DNA of 64,000 nucleotides from a virus. Location: positions 1 to 64,000 of IMG/VR virus record IMGVR_UViG_3300042543_000618; one strand, written 5' to 3'. Made by a program: the position numbers and the translations under genes. Positions 6,948 to 64,000 of this stretch are shown piece by piece. Position 1 is the first letter of the stretch. The number at the start of each line of letters is the position of its first letter. The notes under the pieces were generated by a model, which searched no databases, was not told the DNA's origin, and was given only the letters and a program-made list of their open reading frames with translations.

Positions 6948-7307
6948 ATGAGCCAAAATCAGAAGATACTGGCAGTCCTGCTGCAAATCGAGCAAGTTGT
7001 ATCTCGTTACTCTGACGATGAGCTATCAGAGAAGTGTAGAGAGGCAGGCAAAGATTTTTTTGCGTTCATGCAGTCCCAAGGGGTTCACCCTGGCTGGTGT
7101 CAAAAGTTGATCGTCGATACCCTGGGTATTCATCCGATGAAGCTATGGCGCATTCGTGACATAAAATTGCTGCGGAAGGCGATTTATGCCTATTGCAACA
7201 CCATGGGCGTTACGCCAATTCGCCGGGACGATCAGCCCCACAGGCCGCCCTATCGGGTGGCCCAGGACACCGCCAATTTTTTCTTTGGAAGGACTGACAA
7301 GCCATGA
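6948..7307 (+). CDS. Hypothetical protein, 119 aa
   Basis: Begins MSQNQKILAVLLQIEQVVSR. Soluble, basic C-terminal half (FFFGRTDKP end). The segment around residues 45-75 (GWCQKLIVDTLGIHPMKLWR) could be a helix-turn-helix but I do not assign a family. It overlaps the next gene by 4 bases (ATGA), so the two are co-translated. Confidence 0.65.
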   Translation: MSQNQKILAVLLQIEQVVSRYSDDELSEKCREAGKDFFAFMQSQGVHPGWCQKLIVDTLGIHPMKLWRIRDIKLLRKAIYAYCNTMGVTPIRRDDQPHRPPYRVAQDTANFFFGRTDKP

Positions 7308-7834
7308 GCTTAGCTACTGCCTACATGGAAGCCCAGGCCGCCTCAGCAACGGCGGCGGACGATTGGGAGCTATGGTTCGACACTGACCTGGACCAGGAGA
7401 CCCTAGAAACCGTCACCGCCCACATTGACGCCTTGGAGGTCACTGGCTACCCTACCGATGCCCTAGAGGCCATGCTTGAGGCCGGGGAGGCGCTGTGGTG
7501 GTGCCCCGCCTGGGTGCGAGACCTGCGGGAGGTGTTCTACGGCTGGCTATGCCATGGCCAGGAAATTAAAGCCCGCCTGGTGGCAGACTGGCTGCTGTCT
7601 ACCCTACCCCCTGACCCCATCGACCCTGACACCGCCCAATACCTTGCCCTGGTGGCCAGTGGGGATGCCCTGGAGGCAGAGCCCGGACTGTGTTGCTTTT
7701 GGCCAGCTAGGCCCCGGCTTTACCTCGATAGACTGGATCTGGCCATGGCTGAAGTAGCGGCGGATGCCCTAGCTAGCTATAACGCTGATGTGGATGCACG
7801 GGCGATCGTGGCTGGCGGGAAGGCGATCGCTTAG
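7304..7834 (+). CDS. Hypothetical acidic protein, 176 aa
   Basis: Rich in Ala, Leu, Asp, Glu and Trp (ALWWCPAWVRDL; LCCFWPARPRLYLDRLDLAM). Strongly acidic and helical, with no recognised domain. Encoded in an ATGA overlap with the 119-residue gene, and convergent with the DinD-like gene 12 bases away. An acidic DNA-mimic or inhibitor role is conceivable but unsupported. Confidence 0.65.
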   Translation: MSLATAYMEAQAASATAADDWELWFDTDLDQETLETVTAHIDALEVTGYPTDALEAMLEAGEALWWCPAWVRDLREVFYGWLCHGQEIKARLVADWLLSTLPPDPIDPDTAQYLALVASGDALEAEPGLCCFWPARPRLYLDRLDLAMAEVAADALASYNADVDARAIVAGGKAIA

Positions 7835-7846
7835 AGGCATGGGAAG

Positions 7847-9193
7847 CTACACGTCAAACAATTTGATTTGATGTGATACGCAAAGCTCTTGCTCTTCCCG
7901 TCTTTTAACGAAACTTACAAACTCCTTAATGACTGATTTTTCCTCGTCAGTCAGTTCGTCAGCTCTTTTGTATGTTTTCCGGCGATGGGTTTCCCTGCTC
8001 ATAGGGACACAGTTGACTACCTTGTTGCAGATAGTGGCAGTATCCCAATGATCAAAATCACAGGCATCTGTCCAGGTGCCATCGGCTCTGACAATCGTTG
8101 TCCGATCTATTAGATCACACCCTGGTGTATTGGGAAAATTTAACTTTGTAAACTCATAAAGATATTTTGCGGCTTTTTGCTTGACAGACTTGGTAAAACC
8201 CTTGACGCGCCCAGTATTAGCCCCGTCCTTCATTTCACTTAGCCGCTGACTCAATCCTTGCATGGCCGACAGAAAGGTGTTTGTAAGGGAGTCAATCTGA
8301 TCGGCTAACTGCTCAATACCTTCCTCAACTACTTCAGAGTTTTTGCTGACCTTCTCTTCTAATCCCGTGATTAACCTGTTAATCTCTTGAGTTCTCTCAA
8401 TTCTAGTCAACCCTGCGTCCATCAGCTCGGCCCGGCGCGTCTGGATACTAAAGTAAGCCTGGGCCGCCGCAATCTCAGGCTTTCTGGGGTCGCCGTTTTG
8501 GGCGATCAAATGGCAAGCATGGCGAGAGAGTCGGTAATCCGTGATTTCCCGCATTGCATCACTCCCTAAGGAGACCATTTTCGCGGCGCCGCGAAAATGG
8601 TCTTCATGAGAGAGGCCATATGTATCAAGGCTTTCAGCAGCTCGGTGAATAGCTTGCTCAAATTTTTCCCAAGTTTCATACCCCAGGAGTGTCTGCAGCT
8701 CTCTAGCCAGCCAATACTCTTGAAGCTCGGGATCTGATTGGATTTCATCAAAATGGCGAATAGAGTCAAACGGGCTTGCAAGAACCGCATCGTCAGCCCT
8801 TTCAAGCGCCACAAAGCTTTCGCTGGAGTTATCTTCACCTGCTCCAGCAACCTCTAAGCCGCTTTCACTCGCGCTGTTTACAGACTCTTGCGCTTGTTCA
8901 CGGCTTTCTGGAAGGATAAACCTTTGAGTGCCCCCTGGGAGTAAAGCCTGCTCAACAATCTTCGCTAAGAACCGTAGCGATATTTTTCGAGACTTCAATA
9001 CTCTACGCAAGCCCTCAAGGATGTCAGGCTCAATGCCCTGCATCTTGCTGACTTTCCACAAAGCCAAGTGGAAGCTTTTAACGCTTTTGTAATTTAACTT
9101 GTCTCTACTCTTGCAATAGACAAATTGACGGGCCTGCTCCAACGACACGGTGTCATCCATGGCTGTATCAATAGCGAGTCTAATCAAGCCCAT
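7847..9193 (-). CDS. DinD-like (BRO-N) protein with HNH-like C-terminus, possible antirepressor
   Basis: 448 residues. Residues about 155-260 contain the DinD/BRO-N signature: YWLARELQTLLGYETWEKF, then DHFRGAAKMVSLGS, then DYRLSRHACHLIAQNGDPRK and YFSIQTRR. An N-terminal 130-residue helical region and a low-complexity linker precede it, and a coiled coil follows (about 262-330). The end has CDFDHW...N...PMSRETHRR, an HNH-nuclease-like arrangement of D-H, N and H, less certain. DinD of E. coli is SOS-induced and affects RecA; BRO-N proteins in phages are often antirepressors. The second-to-last residues read QIKLFDV, resembling a sliding-clamp-binding pentapeptide. The gene contains a perfect 32-base palindrome. 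Confidence 0.8.
   Translation of the reverse strand: MGLIRLAIDTAMDDTVSLEQARQFVYCKSRDKLNYKSVKSFHLALWKVSKMQGIEPDILEGLRRVLKSRKISLRFLAKIVEQALLPGGTQRFILPESREQAQESVNSASESGLEVAGAGEDNSSESFVALERADDAVLASPFDSIRHFDEIQSDPELQEYWLARELQTLLGYETWEKFEQAIHRAAESLDTYGLSHEDHFRGAAKMVSLGSDAMREITDYRLSRHACHLIAQNGDPRKPEIAAAQAYFSIQTRRAELMDAGLTRIERTQEINRLITGLEEKVSKNSEVVEEGIEQLADQIDSLTNTFLSAMQGLSQRLSEMKDGANTGRVKGFTKSVKQKAAKYLYEFTKLNFPNTPGCDLIDRTTIVRADGTWTDACDFDHWDTATICNKVVNCVPMSRETHRRKTYKRADELTDEEKSVIKEFVSFVKRREEQELCVSHQIKLFDV
8572..8603. repeat. Perfect 32-base palindrome inside the DinD-like gene
   Basis: Two 16-base arms (first arm AGACCATTTTCGCGGC) meet with no spacer. It encodes the DHFRGAAKMVS part of the BRO-N domain, so it is coding, yet a perfect inverted repeat of this length is not expected by chance. 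It could fold as a hairpin in mRNA or act as a binding site. Confidence 0.9.
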
Positions 9194-20848: not shown

Positions 20849-22036
20849 CTAAAAAATAGCGCCGCTCATCAGGCGATCGCGTTCCTGCCTTAGGAATGCG
20901 GCATAGTCAGCGGAGTCCTCCGGCCCTAGCTGGGTTGATAGTTGCTTGCCGGTGCGGGCTTGCCAGTCCTCCGGCAATAGCACCGTCCGCCGTAGCTCCA
21001 TCAGCAACCCCGTAATTTCTACCTGCCCATCGCGTTTTGCTTGGGGGCGAGCGGGTGATTGGAATGCAGGGGCAGGCTGCGATCGCTTGTCGTCCAAGGC
21101 ACTCTCCCATAGTCGGCCAGACAAGAAGCGACAGCAATGGGGAGCGCCATAAACCTTGCCTTTGGCTTTCATCATTCGCAGGGTAAGCTCAAACCACGCC
21201 TGAGTGCCGTCTAGAATCGCCTCTAAAGGCACTCCAGAGGCTATCAGGCTGTCCCATACCTTAATCGCTTCTGGGCGCTTCTGGGTGACCCAGACGTTGC
21301 TTTCAATCGCCTTTAGGTGATCGCGGTAGTCATTCCAAAATTTCGCGAAGGCTTCTGGATGGTGTTGGGCTTCGGTTTTGGTTTTGCCGCCGGCGGCAGA
21401 TTTTTTTCTTGTCCGGGATTTCGGCTGAGAACTAGATTTCTCTGCCTGGCTATCCAGAGGGGTAACGATATCGGCTTCCTGTTTAGCCGGTTCGAGTTCT
21501 TTGGTTTTTGAGATGGAAGCGCGATCGCGTAGCGCGTCAGCGCTACAAAGCGGTTCGATGTCCGGACACTCAGGTATAGAACTTTTTAATAGATCTTGAT
21601 CGATCTCCGGATCTGAATCTGGATCTGTATCTGTATCTGTATCTGGGGGCGTTGCATTAACGTTACTGAAACGTTTCACTCCCGTTTCTTTTGTCGTAGC
21701 TGTAGCTAAACGCTTTTGTTCACGGTGCTTTCGCACTCTTTCGGTGGAGTTGTCAGATTCAAACTGGCGTCTTGCCCAATGGGTGATCTTGATTCCCGTC
21801 TCATCCCAATCGATCATGCCTTTTACTTTGAATTTAGCTTTTAAGGTTTGCCAGTCCTCGACCGGCATTCTGATTTGGTAGGCAATTTCTTCGTCGGTCA
21901 GGTTGTCAATCCTTCCTCGTTCTGAATTGTCTGAAGCAAGGCATAGGAGGATGATGAAAGCCCACTGGTGGTGAGGGGTCATCAATGACAACTTGGGGTC
22001 GCATCTAAATTCACTGTAAAAACGAAACCATTGCAT
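20849..22036 (-). CDS. Phage replisome organiser-like replication protein
   Basis: The N-terminal about 110 residues (MQWFRFYSEFRCDPKLSLMT, then FIILLCLASDNSERG, then LTDEEIAYQIRMP) match the winged-helix replisome-organiser N-terminal family of phage initiators. A low-complexity acidic linker follows, with a DT repeat (TDTDTDPDSDPE) encoded by repeated GTATCT units. A helical C-terminal domain (about 230-320) comes next. Such proteins bind the phage origin and recruit the helicase loader, so an origin is likely nearby, often inside this gene. Confidence 0.75.
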   Translation of the reverse strand: MQWFRFYSEFRCDPKLSLMTPHHQWAFIILLCLASDNSERGRIDNLTDEEIAYQIRMPVEDWQTLKAKFKVKGMIDWDETGIKITHWARRQFESDNSTERVRKHREQKRLATATTKETGVKRFSNVNATPPDTDTDTDPDSDPEIDQDLLKSSIPECPDIEPLCSADALRDRASISKTKELEPAKQEADIVTPLDSQAEKSSSQPKSRTRKKSAAGGKTKTEAQHHPEAFAKFWNDYRDHLKAIESNVWVTQKRPEAIKVWDSLIASGVPLEAILDGTQAWFELTLRMMKAKGKVYGAPHCCRFLSGRLWESALDDKRSQPAPAFQSPARPQAKRDGQVEITGLLMELRRTVLLPEDWQARTGKQLSTQLGPEDSADYAAFLRQERDRLMSGAIF

Positions 22037-33675: not shown

Positions 33676-34410
33676 TTAGGTATTGGCGCGATCGCGGTAC
33701 GCGCGATCGTTTTCGGCATCGAGTTTCATTTGCATTGCCATACGGTAGAGGCCGTTGGGCATACTTTCTAGGTGCTTGACAATATCTTGCGCTTCAGACA
33801 ATGAACGCCCTTTAGAAACCAGCATTGAAGTAAAATCTTCGCGAATCTTAGCTTCACGCTTTTCTTCCTCCCGCTGCATCCTTGTTTGCCCTTGAGCGTT
33901 AACTTTTAGGCGAACATCGTCAAATTTTTTGCCTGCTTTTTCTTTGGCTCTAGTAGCGCAAGTGGTCCCGAGAAAAACAAATTGGTCTCCACCTTCCCCC
34001 TGCCATTCCTGGGTGGTTTCAAAAACTACCGTTCGCCTTAGTCCTGATTTGCCGCAACAAGAGCAAGTGTCAACCTCGTCTGTAATCCCAACTTGAGCAG
34101 CCAAGGATCTAAATAAATTCTTGGTGGTTTTCTTCTCTGTGCCCTCAATGGTCTTTAAGGCATCTTCCTTTTTAATGACTGGGACGATCTCCTTTGGTTT
34201 GTCGGGCTTGTCCTCTCGTTCCCACCTGCTGTTGGCGTTAAGCCGATAGGTAATGCCGTTTTCTACCTTAGTGTCACCCTCGCTCGGTCCGTCAAATAGT
34301 CCTAGCTGTCCTGGCGACACTTGGCGGCGCCGTCCCGCCTTCCTCAAAACAATGCCGCTAGTGGTCACCACCGGGACGTAGGGCACCCCGGCAAGGGTAT
34401 AAATTTTCAT
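33676..34410 (-). CDS. QLGLF-module protein with zinc-binding domain, 244 aa
   Basis: Residues 1-72 are the module MKIYTLAGVPYVPVV...GIVLRKAGRRR...PGQLGLFD...YRLNANSRWER, shared with the 353-residue protein and with the inside of the protease fusion. A domain with CSCCGKSGLRRTVVFETT...FLGTTCATRAK follows (three or four Cys, probable zinc ribbon), then a basic coiled coil (MQREEEKREAKIREDF). QLGLF fits the clamp-binding QLxLF pattern. It lies between baseplate genes and may be a virion-carried or late DNA-associated protein. Function unknown. Confidence 0.7.
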   Translation of the reverse strand: MKIYTLAGVPYVPVVTTSGIVLRKAGRRRQVSPGQLGLFDGPSEGDTKVENGITYRLNANSRWEREDKPDKPKEIVPVIKKEDALKTIEGTEKKTTKNLFRSLAAQVGITDEVDTCSCCGKSGLRRTVVFETTQEWQGEGGDQFVFLGTTCATRAKEKAGKKFDDVRLKVNAQGQTRMQREEEKREAKIREDFTSMLVSKGRSLSEAQDIVKHLESMPNGLYRMAMQMKLDAENDRAYRDRANT

Positions 34411-40558: not shown

Positions 40559-40808
40559 GGCTCACCCGGCGATCGCGCACCACCTCAAACAAGGGTCGCA
40601 ACTGGCCGCAGATAAGTTGCTCCGCCTCGCTGGTGGCTAGTCGGTTCTCCTGCCAACGGGTCACCCAGTAGGTAATATCCCAATTGGCCGGGTATAGGCT
40701 AAGGCTTTGGCCATTGGGATGACGCAACTCCAGCGGTAGCATGGTGCGGATGAGGTCGCGGTTGTCCATGTACCACTGACAGGCGCGATCGATGTGGGAT
40801 TTATCCAT
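40551..40808 (-). CDS. Hypothetical protein, 85 aa
   Basis: MDKSHIDRACQWYMDNRDLI from ATG 40808, overlapping both neighbours. Trp- and Arg-rich, soluble. A frame opening at 40850 would lie mostly within the previous gene. Probably a small tail-assembly protein; no family recognised. Confidence 0.55.
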   Translation of the reverse strand: MDKSHIDRACQWYMDNRDLIRTMLPLELRHPNGQSLSLYPANWDITYWVTRWQENRLATSEAEQLICGQLRPLFEVVRDRRVSHG

Positions 40809-41862
40809 GGGAACCGGCTCTGCCCATAATGGAGTCGAAGGCGGCATCATCTTGCGCCAAGACTTTGGCTATCTTCCTGGCGGTTGGGCTTGTTGCAAGC
40901 ATGTGAATCCGTTGCTGCGCGATCGCGTCTTGCTTGGAGTCTGCATCAAAGAAGTTTTCGGGTAGCTTCTCATAAAAAGACTCCATCTGGCTTGTAGCTT
41001 TTTTGATGGCTGGCAGTGTATTGATGACGCTATCCAGCAAGCCAAGGGCAAGCTCTGCTTTGCGTTTAGACGCTTGATCAGTTGTGGAGTTCAGATCACT
41101 TACAAAATCTTCCCTAAGGGCTTGGAGTGATGGCTTGTCTTCATAGGCATAGCCCCAGGCTTCCTCGAGCGGGTTGATGCCGTGTTGGCTAAGTTCAGAA
41201 AAGTTTTGGGCGGCACCGGCTACGGCGTCGTAGACAGCTTTTGTATAGGCGTCCTTTGGAGGTGGGCTTTTACCTCTAAATACTTCAGCAAGATCGTCAG
41301 GTGTGCAAATGTCTTCTATGCTTTGAACGCCAAAACTATCATAGGCTTTAACAGCAGACTCCCATTCCTTTGCTTGTTGCCTGCAGGAACTAACGGGCCA
41401 CTCAGTAAGCAGTTCAATTAACATATCTGGGTCGCCAGACTGCTTGAGAAAGTTTACAAATTGCCCAGCCTCTGGGGATGCACTGTTAAGTGCCGCTTTG
41501 GGGTCAATTCCCGCTAAGGGGTCTTGCTGCTCGCCTTGAACACCCTGGGAGACTTGTTGGTGTAGGGCATGGAGTCCTTCCATCGTCGGCGCTTGTTGCT
41601 GCGCCTGTGGTTGGGCTTGGGCGGCGGGCGTAGCGGGTGCTGCAGGCGTCGCCCCCTGACTTCCAGCAAGGTGCCACCGTCCGCCTTGCAATACCTCCTG
41701 GTGTCCCGCTTGGTTGGTGCGGGTTTCACCTTCTTGGTGTTGAGCGTCAAATAGTCCTAGCTGCCCTGGGGCAGGCGATCGCTTGCCCGCTTTCCTCAAG
41801 ACGATGCCGCCAGCGGTCACCACCGGGACATAGTGCACCCCAGCGAGGGTATAAATTTTCAT
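40801..41862 (-). CDS. QLGLF-module protein, 353 aa
   Basis: The first about 65 residues (MKIYTLAGVHYVPVV...GIVLRKAGKR...PGQLGLFD) are the same module as in the 244-residue protein and the protease fusion, here followed by a Gln/Ala/Pro-rich linker (PAAPATPAAQAQPQAQQQAP). The C-terminal 230 residues are all helical with no recognised domain. Situated between endolysin and tail hub. The module carries the QLxLF pattern of sliding-clamp ligands. Confidence 0.7.
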   Translation of the reverse strand: MKIYTLAGVHYVPVVTAGGIVLRKAGKRSPAPGQLGLFDAQHQEGETRTNQAGHQEVLQGGRWHLAGSQGATPAAPATPAAQAQPQAQQQAPTMEGLHALHQQVSQGVQGEQQDPLAGIDPKAALNSASPEAGQFVNFLKQSGDPDMLIELLTEWPVSSCRQQAKEWESAVKAYDSFGVQSIEDICTPDDLAEVFRGKSPPPKDAYTKAVYDAVAGAAQNFSELSQHGINPLEEAWGYAYEDKPSLQALREDFVSDLNSTTDQASKRKAELALGLLDSVINTLPAIKKATSQMESFYEKLPENFFDADSKQDAIAQQRIHMLATSPTARKIAKVLAQDDAAFDSIMGRAGSHG

Positions 41863-42608: not shown

Positions 42609-43400
42609 TTATGCTCCTAGGTCAATGCCGATAGACTTCATGCCAAGCAGGGACGCTACCCGTCCGGTGGTGCCGGTGCCAAAGTAAGGGTCTAGCACCG
42701 TCGCTCCGGCCACTGTGGCGCTAGACAATAGCTCATGGACTAATGAATCAGGGAATGGGCAGGGGTGGCTAGAATGGCCACAGGGACGATGTACCAGCAC
42801 CGACGATCGCAGTGGTTTGGTATTCAACATCGGTCGCCCATTCTTGCCGCTTTTGCCCAGCATCAGGACATACTCATGGGTTTCCGGTGGCGCGTCACCC
42901 TTGCCCACTTGGCTGCTTTGCCCCTTATCCCAAATCAAGATCTTCCGCATTACCCAGCCATCAGCCCGTAGTCGCTCCGCCAGGCGGATAGGCACCAGTA
43001 AGGGTTCTTTCTCGCGGTAGTCGTCCTCCAGGCTACGGCGGTAGAGCCAGTCTCCTGCTTGTCGCCGTTGCCCCTTGGCGCGTATCGGGCTGTAGTTGTT
43101 GCTGGTATCGCCTATCACAATCCAGCACACCCCGCCTTCTGCTAACCCCTGGTACACCAACCTAAAAACCTGCTGCAACGTATCCAGGTAGGCGTCAAGG
43201 CTATCCTCTAGCCCGTGTTGCCCTTCGTGGCCATAGTCTATCTGGCTGTAATAGGGAGGGGAGGTAAGGCAATAGTCCCAGCGATCGCCTGCCGCTAGCC
43301 GTCGCTTCAGGACCGCGATCGCGTCGCCACGGTAGAACCGGATGCGATCGTCCGCCATTGGCTTGAGGTCAATGGTATTGAACAGGGCTAGCTGGTGCAT
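42609..43400 (-). CDS. DNA methyltransferase (SPPY type) with N-terminal QLALF
   Basis: 263 residues. The catalytic LTSPPYY (residues about 45-51) precedes the AdoMet site DPYFGTGTTG (about 238-247), the beta-class order; an S/TSPPY motif suggests N4-cytosine rather than N6-adenine. The very first residues, MHQLALF, match the sliding-clamp pentapeptide pattern QLxLF, which could tether the enzyme to the phage clamp. Probably protects phage DNA from host restriction. Target sequence unknown. Confidence 0.85.
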   Translation of the reverse strand: MHQLALFNTIDLKPMADDRIRFYRGDAIAVLKRRLAAGDRWDYCLTSPPYYSQIDYGHEGQHGLEDSLDAYLDTLQQVFRLVYQGLAEGGVCWIVIGDTSNNYSPIRAKGQRRQAGDWLYRRSLEDDYREKEPLLVPIRLAERLRADGWVMRKILIWDKGQSSQVGKGDAPPETHEYVLMLGKSGKNGRPMLNTKPLRSSVLVHRPCGHSSHPCPFPDSLVHELLSSATVAGATVLDPYFGTGTTGRVASLLGMKSIGIDLGA

Positions 43401-57901: not shown

Positions 57902-60856
57902 CTAGGAGTAAATAACGTACTGTTGGGGAAACTGAACGTCGATGCCGACAACGCCGGGTGAACCGGCAGGGCGCAAAGGTTTCCCCTTTAGCTCCTCAGG
58001 CATCTTTTCTACAAATTCGTCCAGTGCTTTGGTTAGGTCGGCATTCATCGCCTTCACCGTCCCCGCCGCTTGGTAGTCGTTCATAAACGGCAATTCTTGA
58101 GCGAAACGGGTGCAGTATTGCAGGAACCGGACAAAGTTCACCATCGGGTCCGTCGGGGTGTCGGTCATGCCCGCGATCGCCCTGGCGCTGTCGGTCAAGA
58201 AAGAAACCGTCTCCGGGCTGCCCCAGGCGTCCTTGTCCATATAACAAGCCTTGGCTAGGTTGCGGGTTAGTTGGGTGATGGTGATACCGAATACATCAGT
58301 GGGGGGCATACCGCCGGAAGAGTAGGGGCGATGGGCCTTGGGTTGCTTGCCACCGATACCCTTACCGGCATGGGCACTACCGGACTCATCCATTTGTACT
58401 TTTTTACCACCCTTAGGCTGTGGGCTTTTGGCGTCAACCTTACGACCCATCGCCGGGATGCCCGTATCCCGCCATGAGCCAGAGCCAAACTCACGCCCAG
58501 GATTACCCAGGGCTTTGCGGAGGAAGTTATCGATAGTCATGGGGGTGCCTGTCTTGTTAAGTTGGTTTCGCTGGGCAACTTCTTCGTCAATTCTTCGTAG
58601 TGCTTGATCTCGCTTTATTTCTGCGTTGAAGCGGTAAAGCGCTCTGTCTGGCCCAGAAAGGTGGAGCCCTAGCCTTTCTTCCCGGGCTAACCTTGTCGCT
58701 TCTGCTAGTTGAGCGTCAAGCATGTCTGTGTGGTTTTGGTCCGACTCTTGCATTCGGACGCCTTTGGCCCAGTCAATGATCGCACCGAAAACTTTATTGA
58801 AAGGGCGTTGATACGCGCCGTCATTGTTTTGCCAAATTTCTCCTGCTACTTCTTTCTCAAATAGCCTATAAACGTTATCAATTTTTTTGTTGATCTTTTC
58901 GACAAATTCCCGCTCTGGCACGGCATCCATTTTTACTGCCGTGGAAATGACTTGATTGAGCCGCGACTTAAGTTTTTTGTTAAGTGCGTCGGGGATCTTA
59001 GTGCCGTCACCCCTGCGTAGGTCTAATGAAGCGACAAGCGCCTTCAGGCTTGCAGGTGTTGCGATCGCGTCATCCTCCGGCATCGCGCCATCATCCGCCC
59101 CCTCCATCGCCTCACCCTCAGGCATAGGGATATCGCTTTGGTTCAAGCTGGCCAGATATTCCCCAATAGTTTGGATCTTGAACTCAGGTTTAACCTTTCT
59201 CAATAAATCCCTATTTTTTCGCGTGTTTGGGACTTCTCTTATTACGTTGCCATCAGCATCTCGAATAATATAAGACGCTGGCGTTTGCCCTCGCATCCCT
59301 GTAATTGTTTCTTTCATCGGGATTTGACGCCCACCCTCGCCCTCCTCCTCCGCCGCCGCCGCTGGTTCGGCCTCGGGCATGGCCATGGGGCGATCGCTGA
59401 TCTTTCTCGCCAAATCGTTATCAAACCTAATGGGCTTGATATTTAGCTTTTTGTACTTGTTTCCGTAGGTGGTTGAAACGGATACGTTGAACATCTCTCC
59501 GTTAGGATTGATCAGCGTTGCGGCGGGCTTGTCGCCAGAAAACCAGACCAATGCAGGCGTCTCGTTTCCGTCAAAATTTATCGTCCTGACTACTCCTTCG
59601 GATGGACTTCTAGGAATGCCGCCAGCTTCATTGATAATGCGGGTTCGTTCGCCCCCCTCAAAGTACTGAAGGATAGACCGAGCCATCTGGGCAGCCTTAC
59701 CCCGATGCTGCTGGCTTTTACTTCTTCTTTCCTTGGACTCATCCAGAGAGGCAATATTAGCACCATCATCCCCACCCGCAGGCTCATCCTCCGCCGCCGC
59801 TGGTTCAGCCTCGGGCATGGCAGCATGGTAGGGGCTTGGCGCATCATCCCCACCCGCAGGTTCACCCTCAGGCATAGGCTCATCCGCGATCGCGGCTTGC
59901 TGCTGCTCTAGCATTTCGCCAACGGTGGGTTCGGGGTCCTGGGCGGCGGGTTCATCCTCCACCACCGGGACGATCGCGGGCTTTTCCGCCTTCTTCTTCC
60001 CGCCAGACGGCTTACCGCTGGCTTTGGGTTTGTCCATCCGTTCCCAGCGGCTATTGCTATTCAGCCGATAGGTAACACCGTCCTCTACTTTGGTATCGCC
60101 CTCATTGTGGCCACCAAACAAGCCTAGCTGGCCCGGGGAGGGTGCCCGCCGCCGTCCTGCCTTGCGGAGGACAATGCCATGCTCCTCGCTAGGGTGAGCG
60201 GTATAGGCGATGCCATTCAGGTAGATGTAATGCTGTTGCTTCTGAGCGAGCATGGTATTACCCACAGATTTAGCAAGCGCGGTGATGTACGCGCCATTGT
60301 CGGGGGCCTCGGACTCAATTAGTCGATTAGCCGGGTTGTCAGTGATGCTGAGCTCATCGAGCCGCACGTCGGTAATGAGGTTACAGGTCCGCCCGATCGC
60401 ATCTCTACCGGGGCGTACACCGTTGATCTTGCCACCAACGCTAACGCCAAGGTGAACCATGCCCTCTTTGAGCATATTCCACACCACCCGGGCGATGGGG
60501 TTAGCACCAGATAGGACACCCCGCCAGCGGGTAGTGCCATCGCTATCGACACTCATCTCAGTCACCCGGCCCAGGGGGAGCGCGATCGCGGCAAGTAGCC
60601 CCACTTGCTGGTCGTAGGGAATATTAAGGGCAGAGATGGACTGCTTTAGAAATCGCTCCCAAAAGCCATGGTGCAGGCGAATGGGGCCACCCTTTAGCCC
60701 GTCCGGGCCACGGGTTGCCATGAAGCCAGGGATAGCGCGTTGAATCGCGTTCGGGCAAATGGCATCGCCGTCAAGATCTCTAAAAAAATTGGAGGCTACC
60801 CCGCCCACAACCATATCGGCTGACTTGGACAGGATAGCCTCCAGAGGAAGAACCAT
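57902..60856 (-). CDS. Prohead protease fused to QLGLF module and long C-terminal region, 984 aa
   Basis: Residues 1-195 are an XkdF-type prohead serine protease: FRDLDGDAICPNAI, GGPIRLHHGFWERFL (His), EGMVHLGVSVGGK (Ser about 139), TDVRLDELSITDNPANRLI. Residues 208-280 are the QLGLF module (GIVLRKAGRRR...PGQLGLF...YRLNSNSRWER). The remaining 700 contain acidic repeats (PMPEGEPAGGDD, AMPEAEPAA), several helical blocks and a conserved-looking C-terminal domain (SSGGMPPTDVFGITITQLTR). Far larger than ordinary proteases; no ribosome site is visible before ATG 60856, only its complement CTCCTCC. The tail may be virion-internal protein or scaffold. Confidence 0.8.
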   Translation of the reverse strand: MVLPLEAILSKSADMVVGGVASNFFRDLDGDAICPNAIQRAIPGFMATRGPDGLKGGPIRLHHGFWERFLKQSISALNIPYDQQVGLLAAIALPLGRVTEMSVDSDGTTRWRGVLSGANPIARVVWNMLKEGMVHLGVSVGGKINGVRPGRDAIGRTCNLITDVRLDELSITDNPANRLIESEAPDNGAYITALAKSVGNTMLAQKQQHYIYLNGIAYTAHPSEEHGIVLRKAGRRRAPSPGQLGLFGGHNEGDTKVEDGVTYRLNSNSRWERMDKPKASGKPSGGKKKAEKPAIVPVVEDEPAAQDPEPTVGEMLEQQQAAIADEPMPEGEPAGGDDAPSPYHAAMPEAEPAAAEDEPAGGDDGANIASLDESKERRSKSQQHRGKAAQMARSILQYFEGGERTRIINEAGGIPRSPSEGVVRTINFDGNETPALVWFSGDKPAATLINPNGEMFNVSVSTTYGNKYKKLNIKPIRFDNDLARKISDRPMAMPEAEPAAAAEEEGEGGRQIPMKETITGMRGQTPASYIIRDADGNVIREVPNTRKNRDLLRKVKPEFKIQTIGEYLASLNQSDIPMPEGEAMEGADDGAMPEDDAIATPASLKALVASLDLRRGDGTKIPDALNKKLKSRLNQVISTAVKMDAVPEREFVEKINKKIDNVYRLFEKEVAGEIWQNNDGAYQRPFNKVFGAIIDWAKGVRMQESDQNHTDMLDAQLAEATRLAREERLGLHLSGPDRALYRFNAEIKRDQALRRIDEEVAQRNQLNKTGTPMTIDNFLRKALGNPGREFGSGSWRDTGIPAMGRKVDAKSPQPKGGKKVQMDESGSAHAGKGIGGKQPKAHRPYSSGGMPPTDVFGITITQLTRNLAKACYMDKDAWGSPETVSFLTDSARAIAGMTDTPTDPMVNFVRFLQYCTRFAQELPFMNDYQAAGTVKAMNADLTKALDEFVEKMPEELKGKPLRPAGSPGVVGIDVQFPQQYVIYS

Positions 60857-61560: not shown

Positions 61561-62682
61561 TTATTCCCTAATCTGAATGGGCATTACCAGATAGGTCGCC
61601 GGGGACCCATCTGTAAAAACCACTGGCTTAGTCGGCTCGTTCATCTCCACGGTGAAGACTTCGCCAAGGATCGCGTTGGTTAGCGCCTCCTTGATATACT
61701 TGCCATTTCCCGCCAGGGTGATGGGTTCGCTACAAGTTACGCCCTCGACATGCTCCTGAGCCTTGGCCGCCTCTTTTGCCTCCGCACTCATTACCAGCCC
61801 GGCGGTGTCAAATTGAAGTTTGACAATATCCTTGCTTTCGCCTGCTACCACCAGGGTGCGATCTAGGGCGGCTAAAAAAGGCTTGCGATCGCAGGTCGCG
61901 ATCTTGGCAAACACCTTAGGAAACAATTGCCGATAGTTGGGATACTGGCCCTCCAGGACACGGCTATAGAGCTCGGTGTTGCCGCATAGGGCATGTACAG
62001 ACACGTCATCAAAGGTTAATTTGACGATGCCTTCGTAGCCCTTCAGGACGGTTAGCAATTCCCTCAGGCTCTTCCCGGGTAGGGTGACGGGGCGATAGTC
62101 ATCGGGGATGACAACGCTACCGGGTAGCGGGTAGGCGATCATCCGATGGCCATCGGTGGCCGCTAACTCTATCACCCCTGCCTCCCTTTCTTCGCCGGGG
62201 GTAACGGAGAAGTGAACGCCGGTAAGTACCTGCTTGCTTTCGTCAGTACTGGCACAGAACACCGTAGCCGCGATCGCGGCCCGTAGTTCTTCTGAGGATA
62301 TGGACAACTCCACCGGGGTGCCGTCCACCTCGGGCAGGTTGGGGTAGTCCTCAGCCAGGAGGGTATTAATGCGGTACTCACCGCCCAGGGTGGTTAGCAC
62401 CAGGACAGGGTATTGCAGGTCTAAGGCTACCTGCCCTGATAGGCGCTCCAGGATGGGCTTTAGGTAGGTTGGGGATATGCAACAATCACCGGATTGCTCC
62501 ATATCCACTGGCAAGGAAAAGCTAATCCCTAGCGCCTCGTCAAACCCTTTTAGGATAAGACTGCCATTGTCTAGCTGCATCAGCATATGCCCCAGGACAG
62601 GGCGGCTAGGGCGCTTAGGGATAGCGCGATCGCATAGCGCGATCGCCTCTGCCAGATCACCCGCATCAACTGAAAATTTCAT
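61561..62682 (-). CDS. dnaN: DNA polymerase III beta sliding clamp
   Basis: 373 residues, the standard length of bacterial clamps, with three repeated domains. Conserved blocks: RAIPKRPSRPVLGHMLMQLD, FDEALGISFSLPVDMEQSG, TDGHRMIAYPLPG, YSRVLEGQYPNYRQLFP, AGNGKYIKEAL and the C-terminal ATYLVMPIQIRE. It encircles DNA and tethers polymerase and other proteins. GGGAG precedes ATG 62682, which overlaps the upstream HAD gene by 4 bases. The window holds several QLxLF peptides that could bind it. It may substitute for or compete with the host clamp. Confidence 0.93.
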   Translation of the reverse strand: MKFSVDAGDLAEAIALCDRAIPKRPSRPVLGHMLMQLDNGSLILKGFDEALGISFSLPVDMEQSGDCCISPTYLKPILERLSGQVALDLQYPVLVLTTLGGEYRINTLLAEDYPNLPEVDGTPVELSISSEELRAAIAATVFCASTDESKQVLTGVHFSVTPGEEREAGVIELAATDGHRMIAYPLPGSVVIPDDYRPVTLPGKSLRELLTVLKGYEGIVKLTFDDVSVHALCGNTELYSRVLEGQYPNYRQLFPKVFAKIATCDRKPFLAALDRTLVVAGESKDIVKLQFDTAGLVMSAEAKEAAKAQEHVEGVTCSEPITLAGNGKYIKEALTNAILGEVFTVEMNEPTKPVVFTDGSPATYLVMPIQIRE

Positions 62683-63221
62683 TGCAATACTCCCGCTTTT
62701 TCAATGAAATAGGAACCGTGAATAAACCTTTTAATGCCTGCATCGGCGGCGGCATAGTAGGCTTCTGTTTGCAGCCCCACCATGGTGGTCTGTTCAGGCG
62801 TCACCCTAAACCAATCCATGGCCGATAGGATCATGCCTGGCTGGGGCATCCGGTAGCCGGTGTTGGCGTACTTTTGACATTGGCTGTACACCTTGGGAGA
62901 GAACGGCATGGTCATCTGGACAGCATAATTTCCAGAGCCACCCCGGGCCAAAGGGCAAAACCAGATGGCTTGAACCCAATAGTTAGACAGCTCAAACATG
63001 GCCCCGAATAGGCTTTGACACGCACCGAAAGCCAAGTGGCCTTTCTCAACGCCGCCTTGGTTGCTACAGATAGCGACACTGTAGCCCTTGTCAACGTAAG
63101 GCTCCAGTGCACCTAGGATGCCTGGGACCAGGATCATGTCCTCCCGGTTGTTGATGTAGACACCGGGTCCGTTTTTGTGCTGCACTAGGGCGGTGTGGTC
63201 TAGCAAGAGTAGTCGCTTCAT
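62679..63221 (-). CDS. HAD-superfamily protein with degenerate active site
   Basis: 180 residues, like the HisB-N/GmhB/PNK-3'-phosphatase type: LLLLDHTALV, SNQGGVEKGH, MPQPGMILSAMDWFRVTPEQ TTMVGLQTEAYYAAADAGIK. Of the catalytic set, the first Asp and the SNQGG loop are kept. The second Asp of DxDGT is Thr, the KPxPGM lysine is Gln, and both Asp of GDxxxD are lost, so phosphatase activity is doubtful. GGAGGGAG precedes ATG 63221. Co-transcribed with dnaN. Confidence 0.7.
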   Translation of the reverse strand: MKRLLLLDHTALVQHKNGPGVYINNREDMILVPGILGALEPYVDKGYSVAICSNQGGVEKGHLAFGACQSLFGAMFELSNYWVQAIWFCPLARGGSGNYAVQMTMPFSPKVYSQCQKYANTGYRMPQPGMILSAMDWFRVTPEQTTMVGLQTEAYYAAADAGIKRFIHGSYFIEKAGVLQ

Positions 63222-64000
63222 CGTTCTCCCTCCATGACTGCTGTAATGAATTGGGCGGCTTGCTGGGGAACGATGGCGTTTCCGTAGCCGCGTAGCCTCA
63301 TGGTTCTGGCTTCCGCCGTTTCATTTGCCGGTATGCCAGGATTGCTGCCACACACCAGATCGGCGGGAACCCCATTAACCAACGGGAAAATGCTGCGTTG
63401 AGCTGGCCGGGCTTTTCCGTCGGCGCAGGGGAGCCAGTCGGGGTGTTGCCATGGGTTAACCTGGCTACCTCGTTCAAGGGTCTGACATTGTCCCCATGTT
63501 TGTTGCTGGCGCTGGATTTCCAATCCCTGGCCGCCGGCGTCGGCCAGGGAACTAACATCACCTGATCGTTGAGAGATCGCCCGTGAACGTTTTTCACCCA
63601 CCGACGGCTGTAGCCGCCCTTGTTGTCCTTGGCTTGGGGTGTTGACCAAGGTGCCAACCCAGTACAGTCGCTGGCGCAGATGGGGCGCACCGAGCCCCGC
63701 AGCGCATAGATCGACTGCCCCGCAGGCGTAGTCCGCTGCTTCCAGGTCAGTTGATACAACATCCCACCATCCAAGGGCATCGCTTGATGCAACTTGCTCA
63801 CCAAAGACGATCTCAGGGCGACACTGGCTAATGAGCCAAAAGAACGCTGGCCATAGGTGCCGCTCATCAGCAGTCCCTTTTCCTTTGCCTGCCGCGCTGA
63901 AAGGCTGGCATGGGCAACTACCGGTCCAGACGGGTCGGTCCTCTGGCCATCCGGCAAGTTGCAAGGCATAGGGCCACCCACCGATACCGGCGAAGAAGTG
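63218..64000 (-). CDS. DNA cytosine-5 methyltransferase, N-terminus beyond the right edge
   Basis: The frame is open to the window end. Motif I FFAGIGGWPYALQLAG, motif IV SCPCQPFSAAGKG (catalytic Cys), motif VI-like FGEQVAS (the usual ENV is EQV), motif VIII RQRLYWVG and motif X GYGNAIVPQQAAQFI are present in the expected order. The target-recognition region is about 100 residues. A solitary methyltransferase in a phage typically protects against restriction. The start codon lies outside the window. Confidence 0.85.
   Translation of the reverse strand, partial: HFFAGIGGWPYALQLAGWPEDRPVWTGSCPCQPFSAAGKGKGTADERHLWPAFFWLISQCRPEIVFGEQVASSDALGWWDVVSTDLEAADYACGAVDLCAAGLGAPHLRQRLYWVGTLVNTPSQGQQGRLQPSVGEKRSRAISQRSGDVSSLADAGGQGLEIQRQQQTWGQCQTLERGSQVNPWQHPDWLPCADGKARPAQRSIFPLVNGVPADLVCGSNPGIPANETAEARTMRLRGYGNAIVPQQAAQFITAVMEGER

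Follow-up and report, generated by a model that had tools for sequence, protein, structure and literature searches.

Gene setting of the locus

The window analysed in our study comprises bases 1-64000 of the 76,903-base virus record IMGVR_UViG_3300042543_000618, which was compared with ten related virus records (G001-G010). A DnaN-type beta sliding clamp of 373 aa with an intact peptide-binding cleft is encoded at 61561-62682 (minus strand). Other proteins carry pentapeptides of the clamp-binding type, and a residue-level check located these where the initial annotation had placed them, namely QLALF at the N-terminus of a DNA methyltransferase, QIKLF near the C-terminus of a DinD-like protein and QLGLF in a repeated module.

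Tail-sheath, baseplate, portal, major-head and terminase genes were recognised in the record. The replication genes seen comprise a DnaD-like helicase loader (20849-22036), an SSB-like protein and DnaN; the SSB-like protein lies outside the window and ends, as judged by eye, in DWDEEIPF. Among the proteins searched we recognised neither a DNA polymerase nor a clamp loader, and replication of the phage therefore probably depends on the host Pol III. The genes for DnaN, a 180-aa HAD-like protein (by eye), a C5 cytosine methyltransferase and two small ORFs follow each other with successive 4-base overlaps (61561-64000 and L002:4141-4589). Because of these overlaps, translation of the clamp is probably coupled, within a single block, to that of a second DNA methyltransferase, the C5 cytosine enzyme.

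The octamer GCGATCGC is HIP1, a cyanobacterial sequence element. It was found 118 times in the window compared to 1.1 expected, which is the density of a cyanobacterial chromosome, and the host of the virus is therefore almost certainly a cyanobacterium. In the mosaic relatives G1097, G1098 and G1099 the count of GCGATCGC is 0, which suggests another host or another relation to HIP1 methylation. As the QLGLF module matched nothing in 386 cyanobacterial genomes or in a scan of genome contigs, no prophage host was found, although such an empty answer is weak. The second DnaN of the cyanobacterial genome G012 was considered as a prophage clamp and set aside, since its neighbours are ordinary chromosomal genes (groES/groEL-like by eye) and it is probably not part of a prophage.

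The sliding clamp and its cleft

The three Pfam clamp domains PF00712, PF02767 and PF02768 were found in order at residues 1-117, 128-249 and 251-369, all above the curated cut-offs. Moreover, the protein matches PHROG 947 ('DNA polymerase processivity factor') with 1.3e-62 as well as 55 clamp sequences of the PDB. Judged by these matches, the ORF at 61561-62682 is a complete bacterial-type beta clamp, which confirms the DnaN of the initial annotation.

We compared 19 positions of the peptide-binding cleft. Some of these are positions which we take to contact the peptide in the E. coli clamp. The main contacts are those described for that clamp, i.e. V247, L177, V360, P242, M362, G174, P363 and H175 (PMC3716654). 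Overall, the phage protein is 24% identical to E. coli DnaN. At 10 of the 19 positions the residue is the same (L155, T172, G174, H175, R176, P242, N320, Y323, M362 and P363) and most of the others are conservative, among them L177M, V247L, V360L and M364I; further differences are R152K and R365Q. Cyanobacterial DnaN is nearer, with an identity of 37-38% in the search and 35-37% in the alignment, than the best clamp of an isolated phage (only 30%). The phage cleft equals that of cyanobacterial DnaN at 16-17 of the 19 positions, and the differences concern 177, 364 and, in one copy, 241. Going by this agreement, any peptide that fits the phage clamp should fit the host clamp as well. The earlier proposal of a 'phage-specific' clamp interactome is therefore not supported.

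The agreement of the clefts also bears on the idea that the motifs block the clamp, in that they would fill the cleft of the host clamp and drive out polymerases or repair factors of the host, leaving the phage clamp for the replication of the phage. Blocking of the clamp cleft is known for the SocB toxin (PMC9690074), and with matching clefts the peptides should indeed occupy the host clamp. The same match, however, means that phage replication would be blocked too. The phage, without a recognised polymerase or clamp loader among the proteins searched, probably needs the host Pol III. Besides, the motif carriers are enzymes and large late proteins and not small inhibitors. We regard blocking as very unlikely.

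Occurrence and pattern of the pentapeptides

Motifs of the form Q[LI]xLF occur six times in the 24,139 aa of the record, where 0.49 are expected, and this number was not reached in any of 300 shuffles. Four of the six are paralogous copies of the module, which leaves three independent cases with a Poisson probability of about 0.014 by our own arithmetic. Counting only strict motifs that lie no more than 12 residues from a protein end, we found two compared to 0.048 expected (p=0.001). Across the 11 related records Q[LIM]xLF appears in 13 distinct contexts, whereas 15 other residues at position 1 gave 0-6. The total motif count in distant DnaN-encoding records is not significantly raised.

None of the six motifs matches the strict pattern QL[SD]LF, since position 3 is G, A or K. 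All three motif types fit Q-[LIMFP]-x-[LMI]-[FLW]. Across families position 3 is variable (G/A/E/S/D/K/R/N) and Q, L/I/M/F, L and F/W are kept; within the motif Q, L/I, L and F persist through synonymous codon turnover while position 3 varies (G/E; K/R/N). Freedom at position 3 with fixed Q, L and F is the reported behaviour of real clamp motifs (PMC3716654). The positions, too, are as the initial annotation described them, in that the motifs are terminal (residues 3-7 of the methyltransferase and 442-446 of the 448 residues of the DinD-like protein) or lie in a linker, which is unstructured in the aligned AF2 model of the module.

These numbers have to be weighed against the possibility that the pentapeptides are chance matches or functionless linker residues. 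Three independent motifs compared to 0.49 expected in 24,139 aa are only modestly improbable, and the looser pattern Q[LIM]x[LIM][FL] was found 8 times compared to 4.1 expected. Nevertheless, the terminal placement (p=0.001) speaks against chance, and so does an excess that is specific for Q over 15 other residues. The invariance through synonymous change and the move to the other terminus in the DinD-like homologues also speak against it. Chance is already disfavoured by the conservation and seems highly improbable to us. Lack of conservation in homologues had been named beforehand as a result that would speak against the motifs; they are kept in the DinD-like family, in the module paralogues and in a helicase of sister phages.

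We also asked how far such motifs extend. In nine ART-PolyVal proteins from three phyla QLxLF was found 0 times compared to 0.23 expected, and the notion that clamp motifs are general in polyvalent proteins was dropped. From the records compared, the set of several tagged clients is a property of this cyanophage lineage, while the tag of the DinD-like protein is wider.

The methyltransferase and QLALF

The METHYLTRANSFERASE (42609-43400, minus strand, 263 aa) is an SPPY-type N6/N4 DNA methyltransferase of family PF01555 (E=9.6e-30) with the SPPY motif (TSPPYY) and the SAM-binding motif (DPYFGTGTT). It has an N-terminal extension of about 15 residues, MHQLALFNTIDLKPM, which is missing from five distant phage homologues and holds the proposed clamp-binding motif QLALF at residues 3-7 (43380-43394, minus strand), as seen by motif scan and comparison with close relatives. 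All these relatives have QLALF unchanged, although synonymous codon differences (CTA/TTA, CAG/CAA) are seen within it and residues beside it are exchanged (H2Q, L12N). The relatives are 94-98% identical, and at this identity conservation of the motif is weak evidence when taken alone.

Among 160 distant homologues five tail motifs were found compared to about 0.9 expected, and 11 control letters stayed near expectation. A few of these homologues carry similar motifs in an N-terminal tail (QLPLF, QLSLL, QMRLF, QPTIF) or at or near the C-terminus (QIDMF, QLVMF, QVNLL, QLDLL). The nearest one, a cyanobacterial protein of 46% identity, ends in ...GFQPSLFCFP. Where homologues have QxxL[FL] in the core of the enzyme, it lies inside the fold and was left out of the count of clamp motifs. 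Because most of the 160 homologues have no such motif, the tag is sporadic among these sequences and not a feature of the family.

The DinD-like protein and QIKLF

The DinD-like protein (7847-9193, minus strand, 448 aa; PHROG 8036) consists of a DinD/Bro-N-like domain and a C-terminal domain that looks HNH-like by eye. It is 45% identical to E. coli DinD, only over 119 of its 448 aa (residues 141-259); the C-terminal domain shows no match to E. coli DinD, the C-terminus of which is without QxxLF. The proposed C-terminal clamp-binding motif QIKLF occupies residues 442-446 (7856-7870, minus strand), as placed by alignment with homologues. The C-terminal domain recurs in a 729-aa protein of G003 with 38% domain identity, where HQPSIFGD is the counterpart of the tail HQIKLFD in the alignment. 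No such domain was found in isolated phages, plasmids or cyanobacterial genomes.

A search with the domain, which was not directed at the motif, revealed three more distant DinD-like homologues, and all of them have QI[KRN]LFD. In these predicted proteins the motif lies at residues 9-13 and hence at the opposite terminus, and their C-terminal ends are of the YQPG[LS]LLDTQL type. The codons around the motif differ synonymously, and inside it only the amino acid at position 3 changes. Two of the three records encode a DnaN of their own which is 36-37% identical to that of the window. Among the alignments made here, the DinD-like family is the strongest conservation evidence for clamp motifs.

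Two small genes adjoining the DinD-like gene (6948-7834) are about 86% identical to genes of G1097, where a different DinD-like protein stands beside the homologues. Judged from this arrangement, the cassette is a shared and recombining one.

The QLGLF module

The initial annotation counted three copies of the module. Three are indeed present in the window, and a fourth QLGLF copy lies outside it (record 67367-68458). Copy 1 belongs to a protein of 984 aa (57902-60856, minus strand) which comprises a putative head maturation protease region (PHROG 9427, a weak match with E=7e-5), a leader, the module and a variable C-terminal part. By alignment and the AF2 model of copy 3, this copy is built of leader hairpin, QLGLF linker and RW hairpin (60023-60235, minus strand), with QLGLF at residues 243-247 (60116-60130, minus strand). 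In the second protein (40801-41862, minus strand, 353 aa) the leader is N-terminal and QLGLF occupies residues 34-38 (41749-41763, minus strand); no family match was obtained with Pfam or PHROG. The third protein (33676-34410, minus strand, 244 aa) likewise has an N-terminal leader, and its cargo is not conserved in relatives (Pfam, PHROG and relatives were compared). Here QLGLF occupies residues 35-39 (34294-34308, minus strand). Motif scan and alignment located copies 1 and 2. No Pfam domain was found in the module proteins of the window. Their classification as polyvalent proteins was rejected, since they have no recognised domains and only proteins of related records qualify as such.

For structure prediction we used the 70-residue unit of leader, QLGLF and RW hairpin of copy 3 (34201-34410, minus strand) with an alignment of 16 sequences. 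AF2 predicted two beta-hairpins (strands 4-24 and 47-65) with QLGLF in the unstructured linker between them; the mean pLDDT was 74 and that of the block 31-40 was 53. A single-sequence model of the 244-aa protein placed QLGLF in a short helix at low confidence (mean pLDDT 60), and both models are only moderately confident. With Foldseek the module model came closest to the 34-residue phiKZ capsid chain 8y6v_I, a match which with E=0.26 is not significant.

The aligned copies keep PGQLxLF with G or E at position 3, while the surroundings vary and synonymous turnover inside the motif is extensive. The element upstream of QLGLF differs as well: some copies have a TLAG leader, others an RLN hairpin or a helix. 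Conservation covers leader and module and often does not extend to the remainder of the protein; of the 984-aa protein only the N-terminal ~310-325 residues are conserved in relatives. The family thus has the appearance of a common N-terminal address with a swapped, rapidly changing C-terminal cargo (33676-34410, 40801-41862, 57902-60856 and, in the record, 67367-68458 and 72516-75134). The last of these (L002:12516-15134) is an 872-aa protein with a ferritin/Dps-like domain, a module-like RW hairpin without QLGLF and long K/P-rich repeats. A 573-aa protein (record 75144-76865, L002:15144-16865) has a leader-like stretch FTLMGVPYIFD...VLRKAG near its end, followed by CWEGYEAVGMKKKRGKMVPNCVPTN; this CWEGYEAVGMKKKRGKMVPNCVPTN part matches several PHROGs of unknown function. 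In isolated phages the RW hairpin gave only weak matches, to Pseudomonas N4-like portals and a Bordetella phage methylase, and the one that was inspected has no adjoining QLGLF.

In sister phages a polyvalent-type strawberry-notch/SNF2 helicase carries QLGLF about 40 residues before the next hairpin. The sequence QLGLFGG of G001 and G002 is replaced by QFDLFGG in G003, where an inserted linker provides a second motif, QLGLFGQ. Giant multidomain proteins of G002, G003 and G005 combine SNF2, N6_Mtase and ART-PolyVal domains and have QLxLF in linkers. One polyvalent-type protein of the distant record G005 has QMDLF, QLSLF and QLGLF in its linkers. This protein of at least 3185 aa (L034:9841-19395) contains ART-PolyVal, a sigma-70 factor directly after the QLSLF linker and four RW-hairpin repeats GDTKxxNGxTYxLNxNxRWxR. 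Neither its ART domain nor its hairpin was found in isolated phages.

The main rival explanation for the module is that the leader beside QLGLF may, by analogy, be a capsid-targeting signal. The leader of about 26 residues and the linker would then direct late proteins to the prohead and be read by the head protease, PGQLGLF would be part of this signal, and the motifs of the methyltransferase and the DinD-like protein would be separate matters. Leader and PGQLGLF are indeed found on unrelated, poorly conserved C-terminal cargo and on the putative head maturation protease itself. In P1 it is the first 30 residues that guide the packaged antirestriction protein DarB to the capsid (PMC9024508), and the match to the phiKZ capsid chain, although not significant, points in the same direction. 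However, QLGLF persists after three different upstream elements and, in the helicase, without an adjoining RW hairpin. The exchange of G to E at position 3 and of QLGLF to QFDLF obeys the rules of clamp motifs, and the same motif type occurs in non-structural proteins without the leader. As an explanation of the motif we hold a capsid signal to be rather unlikely; the two roles are compatible, and clamp binding could go along with a leader signal. All copies of the module amount to a single event, and because its motif adjoins a possible packaging leader, its conservation could serve something else.

Proposed role of the tagged proteins

We consider it probable that QLALF, QIKLF and QLGLF are genuine clamp-binding motifs on flexible tails and linkers, which together with the phage beta clamp tether their proteins to DNA-loaded clamps. 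As read from the sequences, the tags are most likely of a known motif kind on unusual clients. The observed basis comprises the identity of the clamp, the conservation of its cleft, the presence of the motifs, their terminal or linker position and the conserved motif pattern; from these we infer binding, the clamp partner and all downstream functions. Tails and linkers would present the peptide so that Gln and Leu-Phe dock in the clamp cleft, be it that of the phage or just as well that of the host, and a docked motif would hold its protein at clamps loaded on DNA. Docking of the methyltransferase would link its activity to phage DNA that has just been replicated, in analogy to the recruitment of eukaryotic DNMT1 by PCNA. 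The DinD-like protein, a probable DNA-stress factor, would be placed at forks. The module proteins resemble head or late proteins in which a conserved leader is joined to a variable C-terminal cargo, and they may enter the head; as late or packaged proteins they would be tethered to clamps at phage DNA.

A further-reaching reading, which we think unlikely, takes clamp binding as a general address label of the lineage. The methyltransferase, the DinD-like protein, head-packaged and possibly injected proteins as well as the DarB-like methylase-helicases of sister phages would then all be labelled, and those proteins that enter together with the phage DNA would attach to host clamps at first and to phage clamps later on. 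If clamp binding is confirmed, the phage clamp would have a set of clients of its own which are not polymerases, among them a DNA methyltransferase coupled to replication in analogy to DNMT1-PCNA. This would give a hint as to how phages gather modification and late proteins at their own DNA.

Comparison with known systems

Clients of bacterial sliding clamps are mostly polymerases, repair proteins and transposases. The pentapeptide QL[SD]LF of Pol II, UmuC and IS transposases resembles the motifs described here in its pattern, its free terminal or linker position and the conserved cognate cleft. The clients differ, as they are here an SPPY methyltransferase, a DinD-like protein and phage late or polyvalent-type proteins. 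QLGLF is itself the groove-binding motif of E. coli Pol II (PMC5731819, PMC3716654); a QLGAA mutant stays on the clamp for a shorter time (PMC5731819), and a co-crystal of the clamp with the Pol II peptide TLMTGQLGLF has been described (PMC3716654). QLxLF is also found in transposases, so that mobile elements, too, make use of this motif (PMC4549789).

No report of clamp-tagged SPPY methyltransferases or of clamp-tagged DinD-like or polyvalent-type phage proteins was found in open-access PubMed Central, and such reports may exist elsewhere. Polyvalent proteins and P1 DarB, an injected methylase-helicase, are like the giants of G002, G003 and G005 with their linker QLxLF. Unlike these three, ART-PolyVal giants elsewhere are without QLxLF, and a survey of polyvalent proteins (PMC5512222) does not mention sliding clamp, DnaN or PCNA.

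DNMT1 is also a methyltransferase with a clamp-binding peptide, and its interaction with PCNA favours methylation of clamp-bound, newly replicated DNA (PMC9690074). In our case an unrelated N6/N4 amino-methyltransferase would act with a bacterial clamp, so that the analogy is a functional one only. In the late transcription system gp45-gp55-gp33 of T4, a phage clamp likewise serves clients other than polymerases as a platform (PMC9690074, PMC2988020). This system differs in that gp45 is trimeric and has a sigma factor and a co-activator as its clients. No protein of this record was recognised as a sigma factor, while QLSLF stands next to a sigma-70 domain in the distant G005, an arrangement that recalls T4 gp55. 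Compared with all these systems, the motif and its mode of action are already known and the clients are unusual.
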